A DNA stretch of 33,351 nt from Candidatus Aerophobetes bacterium Ae_b3a (GTDB lineage Bacteria; Aerophobota; Aerophobia; Aerophobales; AE-B3A): the NCBI GenBank assembly GCA_005223095.1, contig NJBQ01000017.1, positions 1 through 33,351 on the forward strand, read 5' to 3'. The translations under genes were made by a program, and so were the position numbers. The notes under the pieces were generated by a model, which saw nothing but the letters and a program-made list of their open reading frames with translations, had not been told where the DNA came from and searched no databases. This document shows, one piece after another, positions 1,472 to 33,351 of this stretch (the stretch's first letter is position 1; each line of letters begins with the position of its first letter).

Positions 1472-1557
1472 CCTCAGGACAATCTCGTATTGCGTATATC
1501 GTATGTCGTATTGCGCAATTCGCATCACGCACGACGCAATACGAGATTGTCCTTCGG
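1472..1557. repeat. Bordered inverted-repeat element containing a 7-bp-period array; possible bidirectional terminator
   Basis: Perfect 19-bp arms AGGACAATCTCGTATTGCG (1476-1494) / CGCAATACGAGATTGTCCT (1535-1553). Borders CCTCAGGACAA / TTGTCCTTCGG. Lies between convergent genes. Confidence 0.85.
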
Positions 1558-3288: not shown

Positions 3289-3480
3289 CCCTTCTTATTA
3301 TTCTATTTCAATCCCTGCCCTTGCGCTCAGAAAAAAGCCTTGAGTCAGAATCTCAGGGGGGTATCCTCTCAGATATTTCATGCTTCTCTTCCCCTGGAGA
3401 CCTGCATTACGTATCTGAACTTAGATTCCCATATGTACTGTGTTAGCTCAAAGTTTTCTTCCTATTAGCGAGGACAGGGA

Positions 3481-3696
3481 TCAATAATTGCGCAGCTGCT
3501 TTCTCTGCAACTTCAACATATTCCTTCTCTGTCTTCGAATAGCTCTAAGTCTTTTCTTTCTTTTTCTCTCCGTGGGTTTTTCGTACTCCTGATGTCGTTT
3601 AATCTCAGAACTCAAACCAGATTGTTGACATTTTGTCTTAAAATACTTTAAGGCTTGAGAAAAGGAGTTATAATCATCTACCTTAATTGTAACCAA
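3481..3696 (-). CDS. rpsU: 30S ribosomal protein S21
   Basis: Basic 71-aa protein with S21 features; TTG start behind a strong purine SD. Confidence 0.9.
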   Translation of the reverse strand: MVTIKVDDYNSFSQALKYFKTKCQQSGLSSEIKRHQEYEKPTERKRKKRLRAIRRQRRNMLKLQRKQLRNY

Positions 3697-6188: not shown

Positions 6189-6330
6189 TGTCATTACGAG
6201 CGCAAGTGAAGCAATCTTATCCTTTATCAGGGATTGCTAGAGCCTGTTCCCAGTAAAGCGAGGAATCTCCCTGGAGGCTTTCAGAACTCCTCGCAATAAC
6301 AGGAAGGAATGTATTTCACTGAATATTTAC
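6189..6330. mobile_element. CATTGCGA-type element, second copy (right TIR present, left TIR absent)
   Basis: TGTCATTACGAGCGCAAGTGAAGCAATC core; ends with TTCACTGAATATTTAC (6315-6330), identical to the 269-284 TIR. Confidence 0.65.
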
Positions 6331-7014: not shown

Positions 7015-7047
7015 CCTTTCTCTTCTTTAGGTCCAATTATATATTTG

Positions 7048-7228
7048 CCGAAGGACATTTTTTGAGAGAGCCTTATAGGAGCAACCTTAACGAAACTTCG
7101 AGTTGAGGAAAAAGAAAAATATACTGTTTGAGGAGCAAAGCGACGAGTTCATATTTTTCCCGAGATGAGAAGCTGAGTAGAAATAATAAAAGGCTACTAT
7201 CGAGCGAAGGAAAAAAATTGTCCTGAGG
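7048..7228. repeat. Intergenic element bordered by CCGAAGGACA / TGTCCTGAGG
   Basis: Borders match those of 1472-1557 in opposite orientation; AT-rich interior without a convincing ORF. Confidence 0.55.
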
Positions 7229-7234
7229 CATTCC

Positions 7235-7711
7235 CTAATCCTTTTTAGCTAGATAAGTAACCAAATCCAAACATTGCCAGGAATTATCCTCATTATTCAG
7301 GTGATTTTTAGCGTTCCCCTCTCTTTCTCCGCTCTTTATCTCCCAATTATTAAGTAAGATTGTAACCTTCAATTCACGCAGATAAGGAGTTTCACTGTCG
7401 CACCATTCTAACCGATATCTGTATCCCTGATAATCCTCAAATTCACCCTCTCTTACCCCACAATTCTCACTCTGAGATAAAGATAGACTACTCAAGCTCT
7501 CATAGCCTTCTCTCTTTACCTCCTCTATTATCTTTTGACCTAAAAGAGCAGTTATGGAATATTGCTCCGCTGCTTCTTTTGCTTTAAAACCTAATGGAAG
7601 AATCTCAATTATGGTCAGAAGCCCCAGCGAGAGAATGACGGTAATAAAAATCACCTCGAAAAAAGTGAAACCTTTTTCTTTAGCCTGAATAGGTAAATCC
7701 ATATATTTCAC
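7235..7711 (-). CDS. Prepilin-type N-terminal methylation domain protein (PilV/GspI-like)
   Basis: KEKGFTFFEVIFITVILSLGLLTIIEILPLG. Confidence 0.85.
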   Translation of the reverse strand: MKYMDLPIQAKEKGFTFFEVIFITVILSLGLLTIIEILPLGFKAKEAAEQYSITALLGQKIIEEVKREGYESLSSLSLSQSENCGVREGEFEDYQGYRYRLEWCDSETPYLRELKVTILLNNWEIKSGEREGNAKNHLNNEDNSWQCLDLVTYLAKKD

Positions 7712-9274: not shown

Positions 9275-9327
9275 GGGGGGAGCAGGCCGAAGGCCGTTGA
9301 GGGGGGATGTTTTCCCCCTCAATATGT
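9275..9327 (+). repeat. GC-rich palindromic repeat, copy 1 (short form)
   Basis: GGGGGGAGCAGGCC...GGCCGTTGAGGGGGGATGTTTTCCCCCTCAATATGT; inverted copy at 12187-12276. Confidence 0.75.
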
Positions 9328-9376
9328 TTTTATCATTCCTCTCTTATTCTTCTGAATAATAGGGCGCTGTCCCTAT

Positions 9377-11554: not shown

Positions 11555-12316
11555 CTACCAGTTATTAATATCATCTTCCAGATAGCCGTTAGATGAACCC
11601 GGCCCATTAGGATCGAGTTCATCTATAAACCCATCTTCATCATCATCTGTCTCATTCTGACAATAATACCCATCAATAAATTCATTTCCTGAGATATCAT
11701 CACTGCCCGTCTTTCCGTCTCGACCCTTACAATAAATGTCATAACTACTTCTATTGTGAAAAGGAGGGGTGGTAAGAGGATTTTTGTCGAGATTAGCCCT
11801 ATAAGAATAGACATGAATACGATCGTCCTTTCCTTTATGCCAGGGATCCAATAGTTCACCATAGCTATTCACCTGGTTGTCATTGAATTCCATATAGGGA
11901 CCTTTTTTCTTGGAATCATCATCAGTATAGCTAGCTGGAGCTGAAGATAAAGCCTCTCTTAGAGAAGCTGAACCGTTGTCATCAGGAGGATAGGAACCAT
12001 GGTCAATCTTATACATACTTATAGCTGTTTGCAGTTGGGCAATGAAAGACTTTGCTGTTGCTCTTTTTGATTTCTCTGTAGCTTGAAGGAAATTAACCAC
12101 TGCTAGACTGGATAAAATAGCGACTATAGCTACTACTATTAAGAGCTCTATCAGGGTAAAACCCTCTTTTCCTGGACTGTCCATGAACATATTGAGGGGA
12201 GAAACATCCCCCCTCAACGGCCCGATCGGCAAAGCCGACTCTCGCTTGGCTCGAGCACGTCGGGCCTGCTCCCCCCTGTTTAACCCAGGGGAATTATTCA
12301 AATTCCGATACTTCAA
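11555..12316 (-). CDS. Prepilin-type protein (GspG-like major pseudopilin); N-terminus uncertain
   Basis: KEGFTLIELLIVVAIVAILSSLAVVNFLQATEKSKRATAKSFIAQLQTAI. The true start may be ATG near 12190 or 12184 rather than TTG at 12316. Confidence 0.85.
   Translation of the reverse strand: MKYRNLNNSPGLNRGEQARRARAKRESALPIGPLRGDVSPLNMFMDSPGKEGFTLIELLIVVAIVAILSSLAVVNFLQATEKSKRATAKSFIAQLQTAISMYKIDHGSYPPDDNGSASLREALSSAPASYTDDDSKKKGPYMEFNDNQVNSYGELLDPWHKGKDDRIHVYSYRANLDKNPLTTPPFHNRSSYDIYCKGRDGKTGSDDISGNEFIDGYYCQNETDDDEDGFIDELDPNGPGSSNGYLEDDINNW
12187..12276 (-). repeat. GC-rich palindromic repeat, copy 2 (long form), overlapping the GspG-like 5' end
   Basis: Reverse complement GGGGGGAGCAGGCC...GGGCCGTTGAGGGGGGATGTTTCTCCCCTCAATATGTT matches copy 1, with a longer centre. 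Confidence 0.75.
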
Positions 12317-26419: not shown

Positions 26420-26526
26420 TGTCATTGCGAGGAGTGGGATTCTTCGCTGCGCTCGGAACAGGCTGCGCAATCCCAAAGTAATCTCAAAAGATTGCCACAC
26501 CTACCTTCGGCAGGTTCGCAATGACA
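26420..26526. repeat. CATTGCGA-type element, fourth copy
   Basis: TGTCATTGCGA (26420-26430) / TCGCAATGACA (26516-26526) perfect inverted ends. Confidence 0.7.
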
Positions 26527-26543
26527 TGGTTCATCGAGTACTT

Positions 26544-26578
26544 ACGAGATACTAGATACGAGATACGATTCACTACTT
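26544..26578. repeat. 7-bp-period array overlapping the cimA stop codon
   Basis: ACGAGAT ACTAGAT ACGAGAT ACGATTC ACTACTT (minus-strand TNTCGTA flavour). Confidence 0.8.
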
Positions 26579-28135: not shown

Positions 28136-28642
28136 CTAAGACTCTCCTTCTTCTCTCATTCTTTCCTTTACATATCCTTCTAATCCCCCTTTGTTGATCA
28201 ACTGCTGCAGAAAAGGAGGAAATGGAACTAGAGAATAGCTTTCTTCTTTAGTAAGGTTCCTAATATTTCCTCTAACAATATCTATTTGCACTTCATCTCC
28301 TTCCTCTATATTTGCAACTACTTGTTCACATTCTACAATAGGAAGACCTATATTTATAGCATTACGAAAAAAAATTCTGGCAAAAGATGAAGCAATTATA
28401 CAGCTAACCCCTGCCTCTTTAAGAGCTAAAGGCGCATGCTCGCGCGACGAGCCACAACCAAAGTTTCTTCCGGCAATTAAAATCTTACTATCTTTGACTC
28501 TACCTGGAAAACTTTCATCCAATCCTTCCATGCAATGCTTAGCCAATTCTTTAGAATCGGTAGTGTCCAGATAACGCGCTGGAATAATCTCATCCGTATT
28601 AATATTATCTCCGTATTTTAACACCCTACCTTTTATGACCAT
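28136..28642 (-). CDS. leuD: 3-isopropylmalate dehydratase small subunit family
   Basis: GDNINTDEIIPARYL; AGRNFGCGSSREHAPLAL; SFARIFFRNAINIGLPIVE. Confidence 0.93.
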   Translation of the reverse strand: MVIKGRVLKYGDNINTDEIIPARYLDTTDSKELAKHCMEGLDESFPGRVKDSKILIAGRNFGCGSSREHAPLALKEAGVSCIIASSFARIFFRNAINIGLPIVECEQVVANIEEGDEVQIDIVRGNIRNLTKEESYSLVPFPPFLQQLINKGGLEGYVKERMREEGES

Positions 28643-28653
28643 TTTTACCTCTT

Positions 28654-28928
28654 GTATATCGTATGTAGTATATAGTATATCGCATTCCGTTGCTCATATC
28701 TAGTATAGCGTAAAGCTAAAAACCCAAGCATAGCGGGTAGCGTTTAGCGTATAGGATAAATCATTAAAAACAAAAAATTCAAACGCTAAGAACAGAAAAC
28801 TATGATTCAAAATGCAGAACTTGTTCCTCTTTCTAATTGGTCTTAGATCTTAAGTTTTAGTCTTACATTTTTGGTTTTGCGTTATGGTTTTGCGCTTTTC
28901 ACGATATACGATATACTATATACGGTTC
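28654..28928. repeat. Composite 7-bp-period array with three flavours, spanning the whole leuD/korA gap
   Basis: 28654-28716 GTATATC GTATGTA GTATATA GTATATC...; 28731-28758 TAGCGGG TAGCGTT TAGCGTA TAGGATA; 28759-28821 A-rich heptads; inverted A-rich heptads to about 28900; 28901-28928 ACGATAT ACGATAT ACTATAT ACGGTTC. Confidence 0.75.
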
Positions 28929-29974
28929 TTAAGCAACGACTCTATTTTCTCCATTATCTCTAAGGGTGTAGGGACTCCTCCTCCTAATCTTCCGTAAAAA
29001 TAGACAGGAACTTGGCTACCCACAGCTAGTTTTACATCTTCTAACATCTGTCCCTCACTCATCTCTACCACAAAGATAAATTTAACTCCACTAATTAGTC
29101 TTTTGATAGCAGTATAGGGAAACGGCCAAAGGCTAATGGGTCGAAGGAGTCCAGCCTTCACTCCCTTCTCTCTGAGCTTATTCACTACTTCCATGCTAAG
29201 GCGAGCCATACTTCCATAAGCTATTATAAGTAAATCCGCATCTTTTGCTGCAAAAGACTCATACCTCACTTCCTGGGAACGCATCCTGGCATATTTTTCT
29301 TGCAAGTGTCTATTGTGCTCCTCTAAAACTCCTTCCTGCAGGTATAAAGACCTTATTATGTTAGCATCTCTTCCCCTGGCTCCACCTATAGCCCATTTCT
29401 TACCAGGTATATCTTTGACTCCATTCTTAAACTTAACCCCCTCCATCATCTGTCCTAGAATAGCATCAGCAAGAATCATCATCGGGTTTCTGTATTTATC
29501 AGCTAAGTCAAAGGCAAGATAGGTTAAATCAGCCATTTCCTGAACTGAACTGGGAGCCAGAACAACCAAATGGTAATCTCCATGACCGCCACCTCGTGTC
29601 GCCTGAAAATAGTCAGATTGGGAAGGTGCTATATTTCCCAACCCTGGTCCTCCCCGCATTACATTGACAACTACGGCCGGAAGCTCAGCTCCAGCAAGGT
29701 AAGATATACCTTCTTGCTTCAAACTAATCCCTGGACCAGAGGAAGACGTCATCGTTCTTGCTCCAGCAGACGCAGCACCATAAACCATATTAATAGCTGC
29801 CAGTTCACTTTCTGCCTGAAGAAAAATTCCTTCTACTTCTCTCATTCTCCTAGCCATATAGGCGGCTATTTCTGACTGAGGAGTAATAGGATAGCCAAAA
29901 TAATAGCGACATCCAGCTCTAATGGCTCCTTCTGCCAAAGCTTCATTGCCCGACATTAGAATTCTTTTGTTCAT
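28916..29974 (-). CDS. 2-oxoacid:ferredoxin oxidoreductase alpha subunit (KorA/VorB-like)
   Basis: MSGNEALAEGAIRAGCRYYFGYPITPQSEIAAYMARRM; TSSSGPGISLKQEGISYLAGAELPAVVVNVMRGGPGLGN. Confidence 0.92.
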   Translation of the reverse strand: MNKRILMSGNEALAEGAIRAGCRYYFGYPITPQSEIAAYMARRMREVEGIFLQAESELAAINMVYGAASAGARTMTSSSGPGISLKQEGISYLAGAELPAVVVNVMRGGPGLGNIAPSQSDYFQATRGGGHGDYHLVVLAPSSVQEMADLTYLAFDLADKYRNPMMILADAILGQMMEGVKFKNGVKDIPGKKWAIGGARGRDANIIRSLYLQEGVLEEHNRHLQEKYARMRSQEVRYESFAAKDADLLIIAYGSMARLSMEVVNKLREKGVKAGLLRPISLWPFPYTAIKRLISGVKFIFVVEMSEGQMLEDVKLAVGSQVPVYFYGRLGGGVPTPLEIMEKIESLLKNRI

Positions 29975-31024: not shown

Positions 31025-31052
31025 TCTCGTATCTCGTATATCGTATATCCGA
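31025..31052. repeat. 7-bp-period array immediately upstream of rseP
   Basis: TCTCGTA TCTCGTA TATCGTA TATCCGA. Confidence 0.8.
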
Positions 31053-31128
31053 ACTTCCGCACGCGGTGGCGGAAGACCGCATAAAATCTACATAAAATTT
31101 TCAAGTCGGTAACACACTTGTCTTTTAT

Positions 31129-32913
31129 CTAAAGTTTTGGTTTAACTTTTACAAGCTCTTTGACGTACTTACGAGTAGCAAGATGTTCACATTTTAGACT
31201 CCTGAGAATATCTTTCTGATCATCGGTTAAACTATTGATCTTTTTCACTGGTTTACCCTTGGGAGAAGCTTTAAATTCTGCCAGGATACAACTGGATAAC
31301 TCCTCATAAATACGGCTTGAGCTCTTAAAGGAGGAGATTTTAGCTTCCTTTACCTGGTTAACGATACTAATGTTTAAAAGATAAGAAAGAATACAGATAG
31401 TGTAATGGGCTCTAACATGTTCTTTTTTGAAAACATAAACAGGAGAAAACTTTACAAATGACTTGATGTTGCGAAAAGCTCTCTCTACCTTATCTTTATC
31501 CCGATAAGAGGTAATTATCCTCCTGGTGGGATAAGTGTATACTCCTTTTTCCTTCTCCTTATGATTAGTGATGAAGCAGCACAGACCATCGGTTAGTTTT
31601 ACTTTTTCTAATTTTTCTTTTTTAATCTCCAATACGATCTTGAAGCTCTTGACTTCTCGAGGGCTCTTAGCGGATCCTTTTTTACATACTTTGTGAGTTT
31701 CAGGTTCCAGATGATACTTGCAAAAATAGGTAAATCCCTTTAGTTTTTTATCCATAAGGCGGCAAAGTGAATCTTTTTTAGGATTCCTCTTTAGCTTTTT
31801 TAAAGCTTGATTCTTCTCTTTGACAAAATATAAAAGGTTATTCAATCTCTCTTGACGAGTCTCTCTCTCATTTTCAAATAGGACACAGTTAAAGCCAATT
31901 ACATATCGCCTGGTCTCGCTTTCTATCTCTTTGAAATAAAGCTCATCATCGAACTTTTCAAAGCCGTGCTCTTTGATATTTTTTATGATTTGACCAGGCT
32001 CATCTCCTTTGAATATAGCTAAATCTAGGCCCTTAACCGAAGGAATTTGATCCTTATCTAAAGCTGAAATATAGCAAAGCTTCTCTTGCTCAATCAAAGC
32101 TAAATTCTTTTCAGAGATTATACCTCGATCAAAGACTAAGATAATCTTCTCAACGCCAAAACGAGTCTTGCACTCAGCTATCTTATTTTTAATAGTAGAG
32201 GCTTCAGTGGTATCTCCGGGTAGAACTTCCCAGGAAAAGGGTATTCCCTTCTCGTTTACTACAAGAGAAAGAACTATTCTATGAGATTTATAGCCGTGGT
32301 CTTTGGTTCTTCCTGGCTTAGCTAAGGAGCATTTGCTTCCTTCAAAATAAGAAGTAGTCAAATCATAAAAGATTAAATTCAGGCTCTTTGAGTCTTTTAC
32401 CTTGATCTTGTTGAAGAGGTGCTTTTCTATTCTTTCTTTTTTATCTTCAATCTGGATAAGTTCTCGATAGATTTTATCATCATTAACTTGGCTATAGTTG
32501 ATCTTTAAGATATAATCAAGGACAGTTCTTCTAGCCCAACGGCTAGCATAAAGTTTACTGCCCGGATCTAAACAGCGATTGAAGGTCAAAATCTTGGCAA
32601 TCTTTAAAGTATCCGTCTTTCTACCAAAGACATCGGAAAGGCCCCAACTTTCCCATTGGTGATTAAGCAGGGCTACATCAAGATAGTGCCAATGTTTTGA
32701 GAAGATGATATCTTTCAGTGAAAGAAGGGTATCCTCCTTTGACTGAATGACCTTTATAACTTGCCGAATTTGATAGGCTTTTAAGTCGGTTAAGTGACCC
32801 AAACGCCAGATGATTCTGATGTGAGATTTACCAGCTTCCCGATAAGATTCGGCAATACTATAATAATTGTAGATTTTGCCTGCTTTTTCCCGTGGTTGAG
32901 GCAGTAGATACAA
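31129..32913 (-). mobile_element. IS1634/IS4-like family transposase, intact ORF
   Basis: LIFYDLTTSYFEGSK, FSWEVLPGDTTEASTI, IILVFDRGIISEKN, YRDKDKVERAFRNIKSFVKFSPVYVFKKEHVRAHYTICIL. TTG start at 32913 behind GGAGGTGG. IS ends not resolved. Confidence 0.88.
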
Positions 32914-32950
32914 GGTGCCACCTCCAAAAAAAGATTTGGTCGGTAGCACC

Positions 32951-32978
32951 ATTATAACACAAAAGACCGAAATGTCAA
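32951..32978 (-). promoter_or_regulatory. Sigma70-type promoter of the transposase
   Basis: TTGACA (32978-32973), 16-bp spacer, TATAAT (32956-32951) on the minus strand. Confidence 0.85.
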
Positions 32979-33136
32979 GGGTTATAAAAGCTTAAATTCG
33001 GTAATACTATATTTGACCCCCATTTAGTGCTAAGCATTGCCATTACTTAATTTGATGGTAAAAACCCACGAAAAAATGCGGAACATGGGGTATATAGTAT
33101 ATCGAAAAAAAAGTGCGTGAATCGAATTATTGCCAT

Positions 33137-33183
33137 AAACGCAATACGACATACGATACACGCAATACGAGATTGTCCTGAGG
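33137..33183. repeat. 7-bp-period array, near-identical to the 1471-1515 segment (inverted)
   Basis: 33140-33184 matches the reverse complement of 1471-1515 with one mismatch over 45 bp, including border TTGTCCTGAGG. Confidence 0.9.
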
Positions 33184-33207
33184 TATTTTTGAGTAGAGGT
33201 TCTGAGC

Positions 33208-33351
33208 ATGGTTGATAACAAAATAAGAGAAAAGATAGCCAGATTGCGAGAAGAAATCCATTACCATGATTACAAATACTATATAGAGAATAATCCGGAA
33301 ATTTCTGATTATGAGTATGACCAGTTAATGAGAGAGCTAAAGAGGTTGGAG
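33208..33351 (+). CDS. ligA: NAD-dependent DNA ligase, N-terminal fragment (runs off window)
   Basis: [48 protein letters not shown]. Confidence 0.93.

Follow-up and report, generated by a model that had tools for sequence, protein, structure and literature searches.

A probable MITE-like mobile hairpin with a palindromic heptad array in its upper stem in Candidatus Aerophobetes

In many bacteria, no other longer repeat unit is as over-represented as the heptamer, and slippage has been put forward to explain this (PMC4692102, PMC4679880). Heptanucleotide repeats have been described in cyanobacteria and in Xanthomonas (GGGAATC) (PMC4692102), in Geobacter (GGGACCG; PMC2700814) and in Beggiatoaceae (TAACTGA; PMC4679880), where they form direct arrays of one consensus unit. 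Among mobile elements, the nearest published case in kind to the element described here is BrickBuilt of Porphyromonas gingivalis, a MITE with an internal minisatellite (PMC4596501), while the nearest modular element is BOX of Streptococcus pneumoniae (PMC3049150). YPAL and Correia (NEMIS) elements are likewise described as short intergenic hairpins with target duplications (PMC2229807). For Aerophobetes, an open-access literature search combining the phylum with repeats and intergenic regions returned only a ribosomal-protein tree study. Here, we describe an element from this phylum that is likely to be a copy of a MITE-like, non-autonomous mobile hairpin, in which degenerate 7-base repeats, arranged as a palindrome, take the place of the upper stem.

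The window analysed is the whole 33,351-bp contig G000:C136 of a 2.37-Mb metagenome-assembled genome (Ca. Aerophobetes); judged by polynucleotide phosphorylase, a long protein, its nearest named relatives are Candidatus Aerophobetes bacteria. All genomes compared are incomplete metagenome assemblies; hence, absences are weak evidence and joins beside repeats may be wrong. The element lies between a convergent pair of genes, directly past the stop codon of the first, the reading frame of which stays intact. The relevant features of the window are as follows (strand is given where one applies).

1155–1469, + strand: Lrp/AsnC-like gene, upstream neighbour of the element
1462–1469, + strand: 8-mer TCAAGTAA bordering the element on the left, a candidate target-site duplication (in the family, the flanks have the consensus TCAAGAAA at either end)
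1470–1581: whole element, fixed outer ends and inner heptad palindrome (from comparison with full copies in its own and related genomes)
1470–1481, + strand: left end TACCTCAGGACA (the left end of the canonical form has 45 places in its own genome at ≤3 mismatches, 0 in a reversed control)
1476–1495, + strand: left perfect arm, 20 bp, AGGACAATCTCGTATTGCGT
1482–1546: CGTATNN heptad palindrome in place of the canonical upper stem (alignment, genome search and TRF)
1534–1553, + strand: right perfect arm, 20 bp, ACGCAATACGAGATTGTCCT
1547–1581, + strand: right end TTGTCCTTCGGTGGACCATATAATTTCCTAGTTCC, the core border motif of which has 25 matches in its own genome against 1 in the control
1582–1589, + strand: right flanking 8-mer TCAAGTGA, candidate target-site duplication, 7/8 identical to the left 8-mer
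1639–2202, − strand: AMMECR1 gene, the other neighbour of the element
7035–7236, − strand: canonical member of the hairpin family (E value 1.1e-69, and alignment)
31050–33090: IS1634-family insertion sequence, with its transposase at 31129–32952
33140–33187, − strand: half element, consisting of the left end and left heptad arm, without the right arm or right end

An earlier note on this DNA had placed a heptad array inside an inverted-repeat element with asymmetric outer borders at 1472–1557. Both borders are found at the positions claimed (CCTCAGGACAA and TTGTCCTTCGG), and TRF located the array at 1485–1511. The perfect arms were also confirmed, at 20 bp each rather than the 19 bp reported, while the span given was too small, the real element covering approximately 1470–1581. 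The palindrome is built of degenerate heptads, CGTATNN in one arm and CGCANNA in the other, and the left flanking 8-mer includes the TAA stop of the Lrp/AsnC-like gene. Folding of the element is very stable on either strand (−50.7 kcal/mol vs −24.4 for shuffled sequences, z −7.7).

The outer borders are those of a hairpin family of ~220 bp (TCAAGAAATACCTCAGGACAATTTCTTCC...GTCCTTCGGTAGACCATATAATTTCCTAGTTCATCAAGA) with 54 matches in its own genome, present in 9/9 genomes of the taxonomic family and retaining 75–80 % identity in other genera. Like a MITE, it is short, non-coding and dispersed in many copies with fixed ends. The sequence GAGATTGTCCT occurs 14 times in the genome and not at all in the reversed control, and a search with a 151-bp region returned 76 own-genome matches, which by our count represent about 34 separate heptad places. 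Across 41 copies, 91.6 % of the pair cells of the canonical stem are paired, with 178 two-sided changes vs 54 in shuffles and ≤35 when the partner was slid by 1–3 columns; since the structure was derived from the same 41 copies on which it was scored, the percentage paired is favoured, but not two-sided changes of the observed size. No known RNA family was matched at the window element or at the canonical copy at 7035–7236; a 6S RNA gene lies at 3308–3483 on the − strand (Rfam RF00013, 52.8 bits).

Inverted ends (ACCTCAGGACAA / TTGTCCTTCGGT) exist but fall short of the extreme tips, on the right by 22 nt. A partner insertion sequence would match the hairpin family ends TACCKMAGGACA and TGAACTAGGAAATTATA. 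Nine left ends have no right end close by; none of them proved to be an autonomous copy, with no transposase within 1.5 kb where the sequence reached that far. A transposase partner need not share the same genome.

The sister species G001 provides evidence of movement. At G000:C78:8044, a member of the family occupies a site reading GCG-TCAAGAAA-(element)-TCAAGAAA-GAAGCCCTTGACTGG, and the empty counterpart in G001:C106 reads GCG-TCAAGAAA-GACCCCCTTGACTGG, with the octamer present once. This is the only clean empty site found, and it shows an 8-bp flanking duplication of TCAAGAAA. When 21 copies were compared, the 8-mers on the two sides of a copy agreed no better than randomly paired ones (p = 0.25), on account of nearly all 8-mers being close to TCAAGAAA, so the target duplication rests on the one clean case; some of the TCAAGAAA motif could be a piece of the element itself or the mark of a strict target. 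Sites also differ between the sister species. At the window site, no orthologous empty site was found in the sister species; Lrp-like orthologues in genus g4 end in AAGGTCAAAAAATAG with no element behind them. The proposal in the earlier note of a small mobile-like unit with asymmetric borders is supported by the genome-wide copies of both ends and by the empty site of a family member; the outcome that the note had set against it, no other copies and vertical descent alone, is contradicted by the many copies and by the Lrp-like gene without an element in another genus.

The family is also associated with promoters. Read outward, the left end runs into TTGAC in 26 copies, 14 of which have a −10 box matching TATAAT at ≥5/6 positions at a spacing of 16–18 (shuffled flanks: mean 1.4, maximum 7 in 2000 shuffles; other spacings: mean 1.0, maximum 5). 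These well-spaced boxes, the compensatory changes that conserve the stem and the survival of the promoter at the empty-site case, where the sister species has the same promoter although it lacks the insertion, would fit a regulatory element in which a hairpin upstream of the −35 box is retained since it tunes the promoter. We consider this unlikely, as the window copy has no −10 box at a spacing of 16–18, the sites differ between sister species and a preference for TTTCTTGA as target, together with survival of those insertions that spare the promoter, explains the association equally well. The simplest explanation for the frequent position of the family directly before −35 boxes is a target similar to TTTCTTGA. 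If functional, the link between left end and −35 box would have consequences for how these bacteria regulate their genes.

The same ends enclose several different interiors. The window arrangement, with a heptad palindrome inside the family ends, recurs at G000:C44:73415, C132:17137 and C74:12180 and, in G001, on contigs C82, C52 and C187. Within the same ends, GTGAATN palindromes are present at C63 and C108, a GTATCTA palindrome at C59 and C77 and other inserts at the hairpin tip at C97 and C67, and the heptad palindrome is also found without the hairpin family ends. In the copies enclosed by the family ends on both sides (n = 7, from six independent sites, C74 and C187 being orthologues), the outermost heptads of one arm are complementary to those of the other at 11–12/12 positions, while those of the other 16 copies are usually not (3/16 reach 10; Fisher p = 0.0005). 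At L280:2463–2514, flanks and borders (TCTCGT...ACGA) are the same in the two sister species but the heptad palindromes that they enclose differ, which may reflect either an exchange at the site or two separate insertions.

What looked like an in-place swap of interiors between G000:C108 and G001:C28 was discarded, since the left flanks proved not to be orthologous and rearrangement or misassembly at the repeat would explain it. At G001:C28:2300–3687, the two flanks of one hairpin copy are orthologous to two places in G000, C78 and C108, reflecting either recombination between copies or misassembly at the repeat. Separately, a GGCCGTTGAGGGGGGATGTTTTCCCCCTCAA palindrome was observed at 9292–9328 and 12186–12222 of the window and at G001:C61:3427–3492; it also occupies the hairpin tip of several mobile-hairpin copies in both sister species, as if inserted.

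A more far-reaching reading of these interiors is that the heptad palindromes are a self-spreading class, with entire upper stems passing as cassettes from one palindrome to another, unrelated one (in MITE ends, REP-like repeats and bare intergenic sites) by a dedicated process acting on hairpins. The mobile hairpin family would then be one carrier among several, steered to −35 boxes. We regard this as quite improbable.

The suggestion that the element acts as a transcription terminator, or as a stabiliser of mRNA 3′ ends, between its convergent neighbours is also doubtful: the convergent arrangement and the very stable fold on either strand are compatible with it, but several heptad places lie 5–25 bp from both neighbours, so that termination there would interrupt operons. 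Moreover, a consensus scan found no stem with a T-run at the element, which lacks the GC-rich stem followed by a U-run of an intrinsic terminator. The genomic context was clear for 22 heptad places: the flanking genes run in the same direction at 19 and converge at three, much as for all gaps in the sampled 84 kb (32/37 same-direction, 3/37 convergent). The bidirectional terminator put forward in the earlier note is, therefore, not upheld, and a terminator or stabiliser role in general appears rather improbable.

Heptad matches were detected in both genomes of the genus and in G002 and G005, and none were found in more distant genera, the single short match in G003 falling outside the heptads. 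In four stretches totalling 84 kb, identity at lag 7 was 0.311 in intergenic vs 0.258 in coding DNA (other lags from 4 to 13: 0.26–0.28), and 21 intergenic period-7 runs were counted vs ≤1 at other periods from 4 to 13. As in STRR-like repeats, tandem 7-mers are over-represented in intergenic DNA, but there are several heptad types in inverted arms rather than one consensus unit in direct orientation. Of five pairs of orthologous arrays in the sister species, three show length differences of exactly 14, 21 and 14 nt, the result expected from slippage or unequal exchange of whole units.

Stepwise change by 7 between orthologues, the period of 7 in intergenic DNA and the over-representation of heptamers across many bacteria (PMC4692102, PMC4679880) would all be accounted for if the heptads had grown in place by polymerase slippage, their borders being incidental. 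This is very unlikely for the arrays considered here, given that about 34 unrelated places share one 60–75 bp core, for the most part with 85–95 % identity, and that this core lies within the same two border sequences, which indicates that copies moved and did not grow independently.

Other repeats share these genomes. REP-like repeats (GTAAATATTCAGTGAACCACGTCATTGCGAAC... and CCTGAAGGC...CAGAACTCC...) lie at 148–284, 6270–6330 and 26514–26545 of the window, the first of these stretches also being matched in G001, G004 and G005. The heptad array at G000:C96:24183 lies inside a REP-like repeat and is missing in G001:C50. The gap at 28642–28932 is flanked by genes that are both ~97 % identical in G001, and the orthologous gap there has an entirely different palindromic filling of ~440 bp with GATGCTC heptads. 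Mobilization of the element as a REP/REPIN by a RAYT (Y1) transposase, a REP-associated enzyme raised in the earlier note, is highly improbable: the element is palindromic, intergenic and present in high copy number, and its own genome has two intact Y1 transposase genes, but no Y1 match was found in G001, G002 or G005, all of which carry heptad arrays and the hairpin family, although at 69–84 % completeness this absence is no proof.

The inverted second copy of the left 45 bp near the far end of the window, also reported in the earlier note, is real and extends to 48 nt (1468–1515 vs 33140–33187; 98 % identity, E value 3e-17 in the own-genome search). It was taken to imply a recent duplication of a small unit, a reading that fails because both copies belong to a large family and one of them is only half an element. 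Rather, the copy at 33140 is a remnant beside the IS1634-family element, without its right arm. The ends of this insertion sequence are imperfect (CCGAACTTCCGCA / TGCGGAACATGGGG) with TATAT on either side, and its point of insertion is apparently a heptad array, with a site-2-protease-like gene on one side and the gene at 33209, called ligA in the earlier note, on the other. Its transposase was rejected as the mover of the hairpin family, as the insertion sequence has different ends, itself sits inside a heptad array and carries none.

For a mobile hairpin copy with an exchanged upper stem, the reading that we prefer, the following course can be proposed. A transposase acting in trans would move the family into TCAAGAAA-like sites; illegitimate recombination between palindromes, or template switching from one to another, would bring in the heptad interior, which would then change by slippage. 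At the window site, such an insertion would have occurred at the Lrp/AsnC-like stop codon with the reading frame left intact. The window copy probably has no function of its own.

The element adds a well-documented example to a known kind of genome parasite and does not represent a novel type of system. Within this uncultured phylum, several unrelated palindromic interiors share a single set of mobile-element ends, and 7-base arrays change by whole units between sister species; together, these observations make the origin of the widespread, unexplained heptanucleotide repeats of bacteria testable. Like those repeats, the arrays have 7-base units and are intergenic, abundant and variable in length between relatives; in contrast to them, they comprise several types, most are palindromes and some of them travel inside a mobile hairpin. 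With BrickBuilt, the family shares a non-coding, multi-copy nature, a fixed leader and tail, a tandem-repeat interior and target duplications, here candidate ones, at some copies only; however, the BrickBuilt unit is a 23 bp direct tandem repeat, whereas degenerate 7-mers in inverted arms are found here, and a canonical covarying interior and several other interiors share the same ends (PMC4596501). BOX resembles it in having fixed outer modules, a variable middle, a hairpin and copies nested in one another, but varies in the number of boxB modules, whereas in the present family unrelated palindromes take the place of the entire upper stem (PMC3049150). Finally, YPAL has internal, not terminal, inverted repeats, and Correia occurs in forms with and without a 50-bp interior (PMC2229807); unlike in either, the interiors of the present family are heptad palindromes.
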